A stretch of DNA of 41,031 nt from a bacterium (GTDB lineage Bacteria; UBA9089; JAHJRX01), in NCBI GenBank assembly GCA_018830565.1, contig JAHJRX010000049.1:1-41031 (forward strand). The letters are read 5' to 3'. Within the stretch, counting starts at the first letter, position 1; the number at the start of each line of letters is the position of its first letter. Below are positions 12,081-41,031 of this stretch, piece by piece. The translations under genes and the position numbers were made by a program. Below the pieces are notes generated by a model. That model searched no databases and was not told the origin of the DNA. It saw only the letters and a program-made list of their open reading frames with translations.

Positions 12081-12098
12081 TTATAATTAGAATGGCTG
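12081..12098 (+). repeat. Copy of the 18-bp intergenic motif (solo)
   Basis: TTATAATTAGAATGGCTG, the reverse complement of the CAGCmATTCTmATTATrA consensus. The bases before it (TCTGTTTTGTAAAATC) also match the copy ending at 37701 and, more loosely, the one at 20654, extending the similarity to about 34 bp. No inverted partner is seen nearby. Confidence 0.6.
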
Positions 12099-12205: not shown

Positions 12206-13297
12206 ATGGTTAGAAAGTTTAATTTTAATCCAGGTCCCGCTGCGCTTCCCTTAGAGGTTCTTCAAGAAGTTCAAGAAAATGTGGTAGATTTTTATGGTTT
12301 AGGAATGTCTGTTTTAGAGATGAGCCATCGAAGTAAAGAATTTATTAATGTTTTAAATGAAGCTAAGCTGCTCTTAAAAGAGATCTTAGAGATTCCCGAA
12401 GATTATGAGATATTATTTCTCCAGGGTGGAGCAAGCTTACAGTTTGCTATGGTTCCTTATAATTTACTTAGAGATGGAGAGTTTGCTGATTATATTATTA
12501 CTGGTTCTTGGGCCAAGAAAGCTTTAAAAGAAGCTAAGATCTTAGGAAAGGTTAACATTGCCGCCACTACTGAATCTGAAAATTTTAAAAGAATTCCTAA
12601 GCCGGGTGAAATAAAGCTCAATCAAGAGGCTGCTTATGTCCATATTACTTCCAATAATACTATCTTTGGAACTCAATGGAAGAGTTTTCCAGAGACAGGA
12701 AACGTGCCTTTAGTGGTTGATATGTCTTCGGATATTTTAAGTCGGAAGTTAGAGGTAAGCAAGTTTGGATTAATCTATGCTGGAGCCCAGAAAAATCTTG
12801 GACCAGCAGGAGTAACTTTAGTTATTATTAGAAAAGATTTAGCCGCGCGATGTCCTGAAACAGTGCCTACTCTTCTTAGATATAAAACCCAGATAGAAGA
12901 AAATTCTCTTTACAATACCCCTTGTGTCTTTGGGATCTATGTAATGAAGTTAGTCTTAGAATGGGTCAAGAAAAAAGGAGGGTTTGAAAAGATAGAAGAA
13001 CTTAATACCAAGAAAGCAGGTTTAATTTATGAGGCGATAGATTCTTCTCAAGGATTTTATCGTCCCCATGCGGAGAAAGATAGTCGTTCTCTAATGAATA
13101 TAACTTTTAGATTAAAGGATGAAAGTTTAGAAGATAAGTTTGTGAAAGAAGCCTCGTCGTTGGGATTCTATGGCTTAAAAGGGCATCGTTCTGTAGGTGG
13201 GATAAGAGCTTCTATTTATAATGCTTTCCCTATAGAAGGCGTGGAAAGATTAGTAGAATTTATGAAAAAGTTTGCTTTGGCAAACCAAAGTGGATAA
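12206..13297 (+). CDS. serC: Phosphoserine aminotransferase
   Basis: 363 residues, typical length. It converts 3-phosphohydroxypyruvate and glutamate to phosphoserine, the second step of serine synthesis, with PLP. The start RKFNFNPGPAALP is the classic family N-terminus. GGASLQFAMVP (74-84) binds PLP phosphate, TSNNTIFGTQW recognises substrate and K196 in YAGAQKNLGPAG is the PLP lysine. The ATG follows TTAGGAGG. The bioC frame overlaps its end, so serC leads a serine/biotin operon. Biotin-pathway methyltransferase and aminotransferase steps use SAM, tied to one-carbon metabolism fed by serine, but a direct functional reason for the linkage is inference. Confidence 0.97.
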   Translation: MVRKFNFNPGPAALPLEVLQEVQENVVDFYGLGMSVLEMSHRSKEFINVLNEAKLLLKEILEIPEDYEILFLQGGASLQFAMVPYNLLRDGEFADYIITGSWAKKALKEAKILGKVNIAATTESENFKRIPKPGEIKLNQEAAYVHITSNNTIFGTQWKSFPETGNVPLVVDMSSDILSRKLEVSKFGLIYAGAQKNLGPAGVTLVIIRKDLAARCPETVPTLLRYKTQIEENSLYNTPCVFGIYVMKLVLEWVKKKGGFEKIEELNTKKAGLIYEAIDSSQGFYRPHAEKDSRSLMNITFRLKDESLEDKFVKEASSLGFYGLKGHRSVGGIRASIYNAFPIEGVERLVEFMKKFALANQSG

Positions 13298-20653: not shown

Positions 20654-20689
20654 CAGCAATTCTCATTATGAAATTTGACAAGACAGATT

Positions 20690-21148
20690 CTAGTCCAGTG
20701 TCAAAAACGAGATACTTATTACTCCAATCAGATAAGAAATAAATAAACAAGGAGTAATTATTAGACAGAGGAAGCTTAGGATATTTGCAACTGCTCAATA
20801 TCCTGTGGCAATTCCATGAAATTGAAAACAACAAGGCAATCTAATTCGTTACAATTGTAGAAGTAAGCTCACAAAGCCGCACCATATCAGGTGAAATGTC
20901 GTAGCCGACAAAATGGTCTGTCAAATTTTTCGCTCGTCCGGCATAAGCGATTTAAATCCCCCTGCGACTTTACTACTTTCCCCCTTTATCAAAGGGGGAT
21001 TAAGGGGGATTCCATGTTGTTTGAGAAGCAGAATCACAAATCGTTTCACCCTTTTTCGGGTCAACCACCGCCACAATAAAATCAATAATATGGCGCGGAG
21101 TGTACTTAACCCACTGTTCAAGATTGTTACTTTGCCTAACCATTGTTA
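20690..21148 (-). pseudogene. hsdM (type I methyltransferase) fragment, copy 1
   Basis: On the minus strand, reading from 21146, it encodes VRQSNNLEQWVKYTPRHII then DFIVAVVDPKKGETICD, homologous to the segment before the SAM motif of HsdM. A deletion of about 44 bp relative to copy 2 (40719-41031) then removes the SAM motif and shifts frame. Further along, HFVGYDISPDMVRLCELTS matches the downstream HsdM segment (GYDISPDMVRL), interrupted by the CCCCC/GGGGG repeat, and LSDWSNKYLVFDTG appears near the end. N- and C-terminal parts are missing. GC content is visibly higher than neighbouring genes. It cannot encode an active enzyme. Confidence 0.75.
20951..21014. repeat. CCCCCTTT/AAAGGGGG palindromic repeat, copy 1
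   Basis: CCCCCTTT (20980-20987), ATC, AAAGGGGG (20991-20998), flanked by TTTAAATCCCCCTG and ATTAAGGGGGATT. This is a widespread interspersed repeat type in bacteria. It is inserted in the hsdM fragment, at the same place as in the copy at 40919-40981. Confidence 0.8.
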
Positions 21149-21188
21149 GCGGGTCATAATGAGAATGGCTGCCCTATTTTCTTTTCTA

Positions 21189-21217
21189 TTGACTTTGAAG
21201 CTTATTTTTAATAATCT
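21189..21217 (+). promoter_or_regulatory. Candidate promoter for the TPR gene
   Basis: TTGACT (21189-21194), a 17-bp spacer and TAATCT (21212-21217). It begins 17 bp after the outward-facing end of the 20654-21171 element and lies 40 bp upstream of the TPR gene. Confidence 0.4.
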
Positions 21218-21257: not shown

Positions 21258-23366
21258 ATGCCTAAAGAAGAAAGAGACAAAGATCAAGATATTAATCATA
21301 ATGGAGAATGGGACTCTTTTTTAAAAGAGTTAGATGATACTGATCTCTTCAAAGAAGATTCTTTATTAAAGCAAGATAGTAAAGAAAGACGCAGAGATAT
21401 AAAAGAGGATAAGTTTGAAGAAGAATTATTTGAATCTCCAGAAAAAATAATCAAAGAAAAGACTAAGGAAAGGACTATAGAAAGCATTATAGATCAAGAG
21501 TTGTTTTCTGTAGAGAAAGAAGAAATTGTTTCCTTTGAAGAAGAAAAAGGCTTTGAAGGATTAGAAGAGGTAAAACCAGAAATTTCAGTAGAAAGGATTA
21601 TCAAAGAAAAGGAAATAACCATTCCTCTTAAAAAGAGAAGGAGGTATCTCGAAAGAGCTCTTACCAAGATTAAGAAAATTAAAGAATATAAAGCCATTGG
21701 GCAAATAATTTGCTTAGCTGCCTGCATTGCATTAGCTGTCTTTCTCTCCTTCCAGGCGATCAATCGTTATCTCCAAGCCAGAGCATATCTCCATAAAGGA
21801 ATTACTGCTATTGAAGAAAGGAACTTTAAAAAAGCAGAGGATTATTTTAAAAAAAGTTTCAAGTATAGCTTTAATAAGATAAAGGTATGTCATCAATTTG
21901 CTTTATCCTATGCTCCAATAAGACCTCAAACAGCTATCTTTATTTTAAAAGCTGTTTTAAGAGAAAAACCAGAAGATTTAAACTTATTAAATAGTTTACT
22001 GGTTGTTTATAGTAATTTGGGTAGCATAAAAGAAGCAGAAGATATTTATCATAAAATATTACGTATTGATTCTGAGAATGTAAAAGCTATGGCTGTGCTG
22101 GGACGAACTTATTTAAATCAAGGGGATATAGAAAAAGCTTTCTTAGAATGTGAAAAAGCCTTAAACATAAAGTATGACAATGTAAGTTCTTTGTTCTTAT
22201 TGCAAAGTATTTTGATGAAAAAAAAGCTGTATAATGCTGCCACTGGTGTACACCGATTCATCTATAAGATTACTGAGGAAAAGCAATGTGATCCTTATAT
22301 CTTATGCCAATTAGGCAAAATTTACTTTGAAAGAAATCGGAAGAAATTAGCGGAGGAGCTTTTTAGGGTTACGGTGAAGCATAACCCCAGTTGTCTGGAA
22401 GCTCATTATTATTTAGGTGTCTTATTTCATGAAAAGAAAATACTTAATAGAGCGGCCGCCGAGTTTCAATTTGTAATTAATAAAGATCATAAGCATGCTA
22501 ATGCTCATAATGGTTTAGGGCAGGTATATTATGAAAAAAATATGATGGAAAAAGCCTTTTTCGAATTTAATAATTGCTTACGATTAGACCCCTCCCATAA
22601 AAAAGCTATTTACAACTTAGCCAATGTTTACTTTTACTACTTCGATGAATTAAAAAAATGTAGCCAACTTTATGAAGATGCTTATCGATTAGGAATTAAT
22701 ACAGTGGATCTACATTATAATCTTGGCGTGGCTTATTATGATAATAAAGAATATACCAAAGCCTTAACGCAGTGGAAAAAGATACTTCCTAAAGAGATAG
22801 ATAATCCCTTTATTAATTATAACTTAGGAGTGGTAAATCTTAGATTAAATGAATTAGATGAAGCTAAAGAAAGATTTAGTAGAGCTTTAGTTATTTTCCA
22901 AAAAAGATTGCTCAAAGCCTATAAGAAATTAACTGCTAATGAAGAAAGGGAGATTCTTAATTGCATTTCTAATGTCTATAATAACCAAGGAATTGTTTAC
23001 GAATTAATGGGAAGAAAGCGAGAAGCTATGACTTCTTTTGCTCAATCGGTAGAAGTTGCTTTCCAGGCTAAAAAGAAGAATAAGATTGCTTATGATAACC
23101 TTCAAAGGTTATTTCAAGGGATTCCCTTAACTATGGCTATTTTTCCTGTTTGTCTTGAGGATAAAATAAGTAAAGAATATATCAAGAAAGAAGTAGAGAA
23201 AAAGCCAAAATATTGGGAGTTTAAAACTACAAGTGATGCTTTTACTTATACAGTTTGTTTTTTGATCGCCTTATTTATCTTTGGAAGTTTTAAATTTTTA
23301 GTAAGAAAAAAGAGTGTCTTTGATCTTGTTTATCAATTATCCAGAAAAGCAGAAAGGGCTATTTAA
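21258..23366 (+). CDS. Membrane-anchored tetratricopeptide repeat protein
   Basis: 702 residues. Residues 1-140 are highly charged and low-complexity, ending in a basic patch (PLKKRRRYLERALTK). A transmembrane helix spans about 146-167 and a second one lies near the C-terminus (TVCFLIALFIFGSFKFLV). Between them are at least ten TPR-like helix pairs (about 175-620), such as AYLHKGITAIEERNFKKAE, AHNGLGQVYYEKNMMEKA and NLGVAYYDNKEYTKAL. TPRs mediate protein-protein contacts, so it may scaffold an envelope complex. The ATG follows GGGGAAAG. alr follows 11 bp downstream. I do not recognise a specific family. Confidence 0.8.
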   Translation: MPKEERDKDQDINHNGEWDSFLKELDDTDLFKEDSLLKQDSKERRRDIKEDKFEEELFESPEKIIKEKTKERTIESIIDQELFSVEKEEIVSFEEEKGFEGLEEVKPEISVERIIKEKEITIPLKKRRRYLERALTKIKKIKEYKAIGQIICLAACIALAVFLSFQAINRYLQARAYLHKGITAIEERNFKKAEDYFKKSFKYSFNKIKVCHQFALSYAPIRPQTAIFILKAVLREKPEDLNLLNSLLVVYSNLGSIKEAEDIYHKILRIDSENVKAMAVLGRTYLNQGDIEKAFLECEKALNIKYDNVSSLFLLQSILMKKKLYNAATGVHRFIYKITEEKQCDPYILCQLGKIYFERNRKKLAEELFRVTVKHNPSCLEAHYYLGVLFHEKKILNRAAAEFQFVINKDHKHANAHNGLGQVYYEKNMMEKAFFEFNNCLRLDPSHKKAIYNLANVYFYYFDELKKCSQLYEDAYRLGINTVDLHYNLGVAYYDNKEYTKALTQWKKILPKEIDNPFINYNLGVVNLRLNELDEAKERFSRALVIFQKRLLKAYKKLTANEEREILNCISNVYNNQGIVYELMGRKREAMTSFAQSVEVAFQAKKKNKIAYDNLQRLFQGIPLTMAIFPVCLEDKISKEYIKKEVEKKPKYWEFKTTSDAFTYTVCFLIALFIFGSFKFLVRKKSVFDLVYQLSRKAERAI

Positions 23367-37547: not shown

Positions 37548-37701
37548 CAGCAATTCTAATTATGAAAATTTCTTTTTATTCTATAGGTAATTTAAGACAA
37601 TATGCCCCTTTGCCAATTAGTTAATGAAGACCAATTTACTATTTAAGGAAAGGGACAAAGTGGTTAATTTGTTTTGTAAAATCTTATAATGAGAATTGCT
37701 G
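37548..37701. mobile_element. 154-bp MITE-like element with 18-bp inverted ends
   Basis: The left end CAGCAATTCTAATTATGA (37548-37565) and right end TTATAATGAGAATTGCTG (37684-37701) are inverted at 16 of 18 positions and match the ends of the element at 20654-21171. The interior has no coding capacity. The right-end sequence TTTGTTTTGTAAAATC before the motif also matches the solo copy near 12081. No target duplication is evident. Confidence 0.5.
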
Positions 37702-37710
37702 AAAAACATC

Positions 37711-37739
37711 TTGACACTATTTAAGCTATTCCCTATAAT
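37711..37739 (+). promoter_or_regulatory. Consensus sigma70 promoter for the phosphofructokinase operon
   Basis: A perfect TTGACA (37711-37716), a 17-bp spacer and a perfect TATAAT (37734-37739). It lies 9 bp after the right end of the 37548-37701 element. The leader to the GTG at 37973 would be about 225 nt, long enough for regulation, and includes the GCTGA tract. Confidence 0.7.
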
Positions 37740-37972: not shown

Positions 37973-39013
37973 GTGAAGAATATAGGTATACTTACTGGTG
38001 GAGGAGATGCTCCTGGCTTAAATGCAGTAATTCGAGCGGTAGTCTACAAAGCTTCTTCTTTGGGTATCTCGGTGCTTGGAATTAAAGAAGGTTGGGCTGG
38101 ACTTTTAAAAGGGGAAGCCACCTTATTAAGTAAAGAAGAAGTAGCCGATATTTATAGTTTAGGAGGAACAATTATTGGAACTTCACGAACTAATCCTTAT
38201 AAGATTGAAGGTGGAAGTAAAAAAGCTATAGAGAATTTTAATAAATTAGGGTTAGATGCCTTAATTGCGGCGGGAGGAGAAGATACTTTAGGAGTAGCCA
38301 ACAAACTTTTTCAGGAAGGCTTAAGAGTAGTTGGGGTGCCTAAAACTATCGATAATGACCTTTCTTGTACTGACTATACATTTGGTTTTGATACCGCTGT
38401 TTCTATTGCTACGGAAGCCATTGACCGGCTACACACCACGGCTAAATCACATCGTCGCTCTTTGGTGGTAGAAATTATGGGCAGACATGCAGGTTGGATA
38501 ACTTTGATGGCTGGTTTAGCAGGCGGAGCTCACTATATAATAATTCCAGAAGTACCTTTTGATATAAGTGAAGTCTGCCAATTAGTAAAAGAAAGAGTAG
38601 AAAAAGGAAAGCTTTATACCATTATTGCTGTTTCTGAAGGGGCCAGGTTTGCTACTGATCAAGAAAAAACAGGGCATTTTCTTCAAAATCAAGAATTAGA
38701 TGCCTTTGGCCATGTAAGATTGGGTGGAATTGGAAAGACTTTAGAGAAGATTATCGAGAAAGAGACTAAAGTCGAGACTCGTTCTGTAGTCTTAGGTCAT
38801 TTACAAAGAGGAGGTTCTCCTACTGCTTTTGATCGTAATTTAGGTACCAGATTAGGTATAAAAGCAGTGGAATTAGCCAAAGAAGGAAGATTTGGATATT
38901 TAGCTTGCCTTTACGAGAATAAGATTACCGCGATGCCCTTAAGTGAGGCGGTGGGTAAGATCAAGACAGTAGATCCAGAGTTATATGAAATAGCTAAGAC
39001 ATTTTTTAGTTAA
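37973..39013 (+). CDS. 6-phosphofructokinase, predicted pyrophosphate-dependent
   Basis: 346 residues. PfkA superfamily: GGGDAPGLN (9-17), GGEDT (101-105), PKTIDNDL (123-130, catalytic Asp127), MGRHAGW and HLQRGGSPTAFDR. ATP-dependent enzymes have Gly at positions 104 and 124. This protein has Asp104 and Lys124, the residues that mark pyrophosphate as phosphoryl donor, and GGEDTLGVA resembles the actinomycete PPi enzyme type. It would then be reversible and serve both glycolysis and gluconeogenesis. The start is GTG, with AAGGAAG upstream. The aldolase-like gene follows after 9 bp, so consecutive glycolytic steps are in one operon. Confidence 0.9.
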   Translation: MKNIGILTGGGDAPGLNAVIRAVVYKASSLGISVLGIKEGWAGLLKGEATLLSKEEVADIYSLGGTIIGTSRTNPYKIEGGSKKAIENFNKLGLDALIAAGGEDTLGVANKLFQEGLRVVGVPKTIDNDLSCTDYTFGFDTAVSIATEAIDRLHTTAKSHRRSLVVEIMGRHAGWITLMAGLAGGAHYIIIPEVPFDISEVCQLVKERVEKGKLYTIIAVSEGARFATDQEKTGHFLQNQELDAFGHVRLGGIGKTLEKIIEKETKVETRSVVLGHLQRGGSPTAFDRNLGTRLGIKAVELAKEGRFGYLACLYENKITAMPLSEAVGKIKTVDPELYEIAKTFFS

Positions 39014-40718: not shown

Positions 40719-41031
40719 CAGCAATTCTAATTATGACTCGCTAATAATGGTTAGGCAAAGTAACAATCTTGAACAGTGGGTTAAGTGCACTCCGCGCCAT
40801 ATTATTGATTTTATTGTGGCGGCGGTTGACCCGAAGAAAGACGAAACGATTCGTGATCCTGCTTACGGAACGGCTGGATTTTTGATTTCCGCTTATAAAC
40901 ATATTTTCAAACAACATGGAATCCCCCTTAATCCCCCTTTGATAAAGGGGGAAAGTAGCAAAGCCACAGGGGGATTTAAATCGCTTACTTGTTTATTTAT
41001 TCCTTACCTGATTGGAGTGATAAGTATCTTG
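40719..41031 (+). pseudogene. hsdM fragment, copy 2, running off the window
   Basis: It begins with the 18-bp motif CAGCAATTCTAATTATGA (40719-40736), then an open frame from the ATG at 40747: VRQSNNLEQWVKCTPRHII, DFIVAAVDPKKDETIRDP, AYGTAGFLISAYKHIFKQHG. This is the SAM-binding region of a type I methyltransferase (DPACGTAGF in intact proteins, here DPAYGTAGF). The frame then runs through the CCCCC/GGGGG repeat, and a deletion of about 190 bp relative to copy 1 joins it to the LFIY..DWS segment. It is GC-richer than its neighbours. The start of the gene is absent and the far end is outside the window. The sequence from 40678 to 40718 holds only a GTGGGG/CCCCAC hairpin. Confidence 0.75.
40919..40981. 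repeat. CCCCCTTT/AAAGGGGG palindromic repeat, copy 2
   Basis: CCCCCTTT (40933-40940), GAT, AAAGGGGG (40944-40951), with flanking CCCCCTTAAT and CAGGGGGATTTAAA. It is the same unit as at 20951-21014 in opposite orientation, at the same position in the hsdM fragment. Confidence 0.8.

Follow-up and report, generated by a model that had tools for sequence, protein, structure and literature searches.

Bacterial MITEs, such as the Correia elements and the MITEs derived from insertion sequences, are short, occur in many copies and carry the terminal inverted repeats (TIRs) of a transposon but no transposase. The capture of gene fragments by transposons, and their subsequent multiplication, is best known from plants. 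Plant Pack-MULEs are non-autonomous, carry fragments of host genes and insert near gene starts (PMC3942029). In Pseudomonas, the TIMEs and TIME-COMP elements are miniature Tn3 derivatives that can move other DNA and assemble into mosaics (PMC4133298). A further group, comprising TnGBS, ISLre2 and some ISKra4 elements (p-MULT 3 and 4), inserts 15-17 bp upstream of the -35 boxes of sigma-A promoters, generates 8-9 bp duplications and has inverted repeats with a terminal C; for these elements, an interaction with the initiation complex of RNA polymerase has been proposed (PMC3942029).

The window analysed here, a bacterial DNA stretch of 41,031 nucleotides that makes up the whole of contig C49, contains two copies of an element bearing part of the type I methylase gene hsdM. 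We read both, with a probability of about 0.9, as MITEs of an ISNCY / IS4-ISAs1-like DDE transposon that has the ends CAGCAATTCTMATTWTRR, makes a 9-bp duplication and appears to direct its insertion to promoters. Copy 1 (20654-21171, minus strand) is a 518-bp non-autonomous element with a captured hsdM fragment, delimited by a TIR at both ends and by alignment with seven other copies in the genome. A motif search of the window places the 18-bp motif at its two ends in inverted orientation, as an exact match at the transposon's right (B) end (20654-20671, plus strand, CAGCAATTCTCATTATGA) and with one mismatch on the hsdM side (21154-21171, minus strand, CAGCCATTCTCATTATGA). Its interior holds only internal hsdM fragments and repeats, and no transposase gene. 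The first part of the hsdM fragment (21018-21101, minus strand) runs from TPRHIIDF, where the homology starts, with a 92% amino acid match and a deletion private to this copy; the second part (PDERK..DISPDMVRL, 20871-20943, minus strand, with the match at 20871-20936) is common to the copy on contig C52. The two are separated by a palindromic CCCCCTT..AAGGGGG repeat (20944-21017, minus strand, boundaries approximate). Next, at 20778-20874 (boundaries approximate), comes a piece of a second MITE family (TIR GTAACTGCTCAATATCCTGTGG) nested in the element; it was recognised by a TIR search and by 79-91% DNA identity to repeats of another genome of the phylum, G009. The right-end segment (20654-20751, minus strand) is present in all hsdM copies that reach that end, and its outer 36 bp match the transposon's B end. 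A 9-bp flank repeat test finds no target duplication at the insertion point of copy 1.

Copy 2 (40719-41031, plus strand), whose TIR lies at 40719-40736 (plus strand, CAGCAATTCTAATTATGA), is a short form of the same element and runs to the end of the contig. It differs from the copy on contig C51 at five sites, and the final 141 nt, which in each case reach the contig end, are identical in the two; copy 2 is therefore truncated by assembly, at a break caused by the repeat, and not by biology. The initial annotation took its end at 41031 at face value and missed the contig-end cut. It had correctly located both copies and recognised that they have in common the hsdM segment, the palindromic CCCCC/GGGGG repeat and the 18-bp boundary motif, with which each does start, but it overlooked the second, inverted end of copy 1. 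The gap of about 44 bp that it saw in copy 1 measures 41 bp and is filled in copy 2; the deletion of about 190 bp attributed to copy 2 is right in size (about 192 bp measured), but the difference is in part the nested MITE fragment of copy 1. The palindrome, described as inserted in the methylase segment, is indeed there; in several copies it reads in frame with hsdM (GIPLNPPLIKGE) and may therefore have been part of the gene already when the fragment was captured. The same palindrome (AATCCCCCTTTGATAAAGGGGGA) is also found in genomes of other phyla, and it occurs in the window at 20944-21017 and 40921-40980 and at loci L095, L098, L099, L106 and L107.

The 18-bp motif is the transposon's TIR. 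It matches six times in the window against 0.06 expected, and the bacterium's own genome (1.70 Mb in 86 contigs, 99% complete), in which the stretches around matches were read, has 62 sites at up to three mismatches compared with three for a reversed-pattern control. Of 19 genomes from the phylum, 13 contain the motif and none the control pattern, with 159 sites in the genome G015 alone, these being counts from fragmented assemblies in which repeats are what is lost. Complete units are mostly 100-260 bp long and combine common 18-bp ends with very different interiors. A 9-bp direct repeat (at least 7/9 matching) marks the insertion point in 14 of 44 complete units, against 0.5% for mismatched pairs of flanks; examples are TGTTTAATC, ATAAAAGCA and CATCGCCAC. 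The window holds two further members. One is a 154-bp MITE (37548-37701, plus strand) without cargo, in which the left (A) end is joined directly to the B end, marking it as an internal deletion derivative of the transposon; the other is a solo TIR with B-end sequence (12081-12098, minus strand). A literature search for the TIR sequence returned no paper. Another repeat, with the end-like sequence TGTAATACCAAAATGAAAATGTCC, lies beside or within family members (G000 C20:1-157, C42:23213-23438 and C75:1-300), and on C75 a frame near it reads IIHSDNGPQ, as in IS3/IS481-type transposases.

In G015 the 18-bp end leads into a transposase-like gene. Its relative in the window's own genome is decayed (C76:13341-13691, 58% identity, two stops) and is flanked by the left-end sequence A (ATGAAAATTTCTTTTTATTCTATAGGTAATTTAAG) and the right end B (TGTAAAATCTTATAATTAGAATTGCTG); further pieces occur on C46 and C52, and the stretches read in this genome contain decayed pieces only and no complete transposase. 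Six contig ends, however, enter the unit for 138-140 bp without a mismatch, three from the A side (C22R, C23R and C82L) and three from the B side (C22L, C67L and C84R), and four of them can be paired across the gap by identical 9-bp duplications (C22R/C84R, AATCAAAGT; C23R/C22L, GCTTTTATT). Perfect duplications at paired contig ends indicate recent, longer copies lying in the assembly gaps, and these copies may well encode an intact transposase.

Relatives of the G015 transposase (44-50% identity) are found in 1.8-1.9 kb elements on cyanobacterial plasmids of Gloeothece (NC_014534), Calothrix (AP025020/AP025021), Anabaena (NC_019773) and Nostoc (CP054697). These elements end in CAGCAATTCTCATTTTGA or close variants, and 9-bp duplications flank four of the five (GGCAACGAC, GAAATATAC, GTTATCTAT and GGTAATCCC). 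One of the records is annotated "ISNCY family transposase", the Calothrix protein gives a weak DDE_Tnp_1 match (24.1 bits, cut-off 23), and the matches of these relatives to IS4_2 (4.5e-6) and ISAs1 (0.0065) are weak, both falling under the model cut-offs; no Mutator-type Pfam or NCBIfam model matches. The enzyme is thus predicted to be a DDE transposase of ISNCY / IS4-ISAs1-like type, a class assignment made from weak profile matches. Searches found no relatives in viral contigs and no meaningful match among solved structures. Proteins matching PF01609, considered as the parent transposase, occur in 14 genomes of the phylum and not in the window's own, with no exact TIR beside the matches examined, and were rejected. 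The transposase acting on the miniature elements would be supplied in trans by gap-hidden or past copies, and it would need little beyond the 18-bp TIR, so that almost any interior could be carried.

The initial annotation had proposed a non-autonomous mobile element built on a captured methylase segment, and this is borne out by the many same-ended copies with variable interiors, the 9-bp duplications, the related transposase and a deletion common to five copies. The search of this genome and related ones that it suggested recovers many copies, together with a transposase with matching TIR, decayed in this genome and also present elsewhere, and does not find an intact parent hsdM.

The position of the elements relative to promoters was absent from that annotation. 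A TTGAC box lies within 22 bp outward of 41 of 129 element ends, compared with two in the opposite sense, in a set from which orthologous insertions are only partly removed. The distances from end to box peak at 17-19 bp, minor clusters fall at 7-9 and 11-14 bp, almost none exceeds 22 bp, and the boxes are followed after 17 bp by a TATAAT-like box with a preceding TG, that is, a full, outward-facing sigma-70 promoter. After the peak had been noticed in an initial set, a second set served to test it: 17 of 64 ends there have the box against two in the opposite sense, 15 of the 17 at 17-19 bp, and promoter-like matches occur at 22 of 62 ends against 4.5 in shuffles. The peak is also seen in other genomes and in the recent, high-copy families of G015 (13 of 41 ends, 0.5 expected). 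A control MITE family (GTAACTGCTCAATA), mostly of G009, shows no such peak (1/39), and the five cyanobacterial elements show no promoter association (0/10 ends). Within the window, a -35-like TTGACT (21189-21194, plus strand) stands 17 bp outside copy 1, with a weak -10, before a TPR-repeat gene (21258-23366); a TTGACA-N17-TATAAT promoter (37711-37739, plus strand) stands 9 bp outside the 154-bp MITE, before phosphofructokinase (37973-39013); and a TTGACT stands 18 bp outside the solo TIR, before an aminotransferase gene (12206-13297). Counted back over the 9-bp duplication, the original cut falls at about -50 or about -40 from the start of transcription, a region in which DNA is contacted by the RNA polymerase alpha subunit. 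Insertion appears to be directed to the DNA just upstream of sigma-70 promoters, probably through contact with promoter-bound RNA polymerase or through recognition of the DNA occupied upstream of the -35 box.

The same positions could instead reflect selection acting on mobile elements, for example as insulators or upstream activating DNA, if insertions in genes and core promoters were lost and elements at a fixed spacing were kept for a regulatory effect. We regard this as unlikely, if the better of the alternatives together with the composite considered below. The peak at 17-19 bp is sharp, with almost nothing further out, and it persists in the recent G015 families, and on these two grounds directed insertion is favoured; moreover, the peak is missing in the other MITE family of the phylum, and directed insertion of this type is known in other elements (PMC3942029). 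As a separate observation, some elements of G015 that lack target duplications (L347, L329 and L176) are flanked on either side by a promoter facing outward, in most cases at 17-19 bp, a pattern that would fit a recombination event between copies in which flanks from two insertions were brought together.

The hsdM-bearing elements form a subfamily of at least eight copies in the window's own genome, eight of which were aligned. The hsdM homology starts 52 bp inside the left TIR and has 75-80% identity to the hsdM of distant bacteria; most of the gene segment is retained by the C52 copy and less by copy 1. Extended over the 52 bp to the left TIR the homology is not better than shuffles. In the right-end segment, about 60 bp have matches solely among the copies and ends of this family. 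One deletion junction, CGCTTA joined to CTTGTTTATTTATTCC, recurs in the copies on C49 (copy 2), C51, C84, C68 and C45. A deletion common to five sites points most readily to the transposition of a single founder that already had it, and indicates that the fragment spread as a unit. Target duplications accompany two of these copies, as a 12-bp flanking repeat with one mismatch on C84 and as CCGAAGATT, beside a damaged right end, on C68. The copies contain only internal pieces of hsdM, never with hsdS or hsdR alongside, and neither this genome nor the rest of the phylum yielded an intact parent hsdM. The closest hsdM of the phylum (L213, G016:C154:1-3500; 65% amino acid identity over half the query) is a fused open frame of an hsdR-like N-terminal stretch and the C-terminal part of hsdM, and the closest outside it are in Falkowbacteria and Wolfebacteria MAGs (80%). 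The hsdM piece would be passenger DNA that encodes no working methylase.

How the piece entered the element is suggested by its surroundings. It might have travelled as an ordinary composite of two complete MITEs around an hsdM segment, as Tn3-derived TIMEs are known to form (PMC4133298). Here, however, the cargo lies inside both TIRs and has to its left only the 18-bp TIR and no whole MITE, such that nearly all of a left MITE would have to have been lost later, and we hold this origin to be improbable. The junctions of the fragment, with only a bare TIR to the left and the native right end of the transposon opposite, suggest repair or template switching at an element in place of two whole flanking elements. 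In the mobile-element reading that we prefer, part of the interior of a type I hsdM gene, perhaps already with its in-frame palindrome, would once have been joined between a bare TIR and the transposon right end; the resulting composite would then have transposed and shed internal pieces in separate lineages, copy 1 gaining its fragment of the second MITE. This second MITE family, to which the fragment at 20778-20874 belongs and whose ends are GTAACTGCTCAATAWCCTGTGG, has 165 sites in G009 and only three in the window's own genome (L373-L402, mostly G009), and its L381 copy has an apparent 8-bp duplication; from this duplication and its GTAA start we presume an origin of IS66 type.

Two further explanations fare much worse. 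On one of them, the motif would be a hot spot of recombination, or a site-specific target for it, and the fragments would have arisen there repeatedly; this would suit the several elements that lack target duplications and have mismatched flanks or nested pieces. It is made very improbable by the inverted ends, by a DDE transposase with matching ends and by 9-bp duplications at a frequency well beyond chance; the recurrent recombination target offered as an alternative in the initial annotation is not needed, and exchange between copies probably came later and did not give rise to the elements. Least credible of all is an eroded, duplicated hsd operon from which the 18-bp motif derives, for although the interior is truly hsdM, it is internal hsdM only and never hsdS or hsdR, most of the 62 motif sites are without hsdM, five copies at unrelated sites have one deletion, and the motif ends transposons elsewhere that are free of hsdM, which rules out this reading and with it the prospect of two sole copies bounded by part of an intact operon.

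Taken with the promoter association, these findings lead us to favour, if only by a little, the view that the family is a bacterial counterpart of Pack-MULEs, in which a non-Mutator DDE lineage would have independently evolved insertion at a fixed distance from sigma-70 promoters, and its miniature derivatives, with almost any interior and including a host gene fragment, would have spread phylum-wide. Fixed-distance promoter targeting by an IS4/ISAs1-like transposase is not reported in the literature that could be searched, where only Mutator-like elements of bacteria are credited with this habit. If another transposase group, apparently unrelated, has it too, the idea of polymerase contact would become testable by comparison, and its occurrence in two groups would suggest a general route by which transposons spread without breaking genes. 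The hsdM copies, for their part, are a clear example, in a bacterium, of gene-fragment capture within a single pair of transposon ends followed by multiplication.

Compared with the described systems, the hsdM elements are most directly alike to the ISNCY-annotated cyanobacterial transposons in TIR and 9-bp duplications, from which they differ in that the latter are 1.8-1.9 kb long, have a transposase gene and no hsdM, and show no promoter association at the few ends examined. They depart from bacterial MITEs in general in having one subfamily with a gene fragment, interiors that differ widely between genomes and ends common across the phylum. Insertion at a fixed distance upstream of promoters is a property of both this family and TnGBS, ISLre2 and ISKra4, as are target duplications of similar length (8-9 bp in the latter) and inverted repeats with a terminal C, but the transposases of the latter are Mutator-like whereas the relatives here weakly match DDE_Tnp_1, IS4 and ISAs1, and since no Mutator-type model matched we do not file the family with them. 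TIMEs and TIME-COMP elements differ in being Tn3-derived, in making 5-bp duplications and in flanking their cargo with two miniature elements. Pack-MULEs, finally, are eukaryotic and of Mutator type, whereas the family described here lives in a bacterium and carries one clear gene fragment only.
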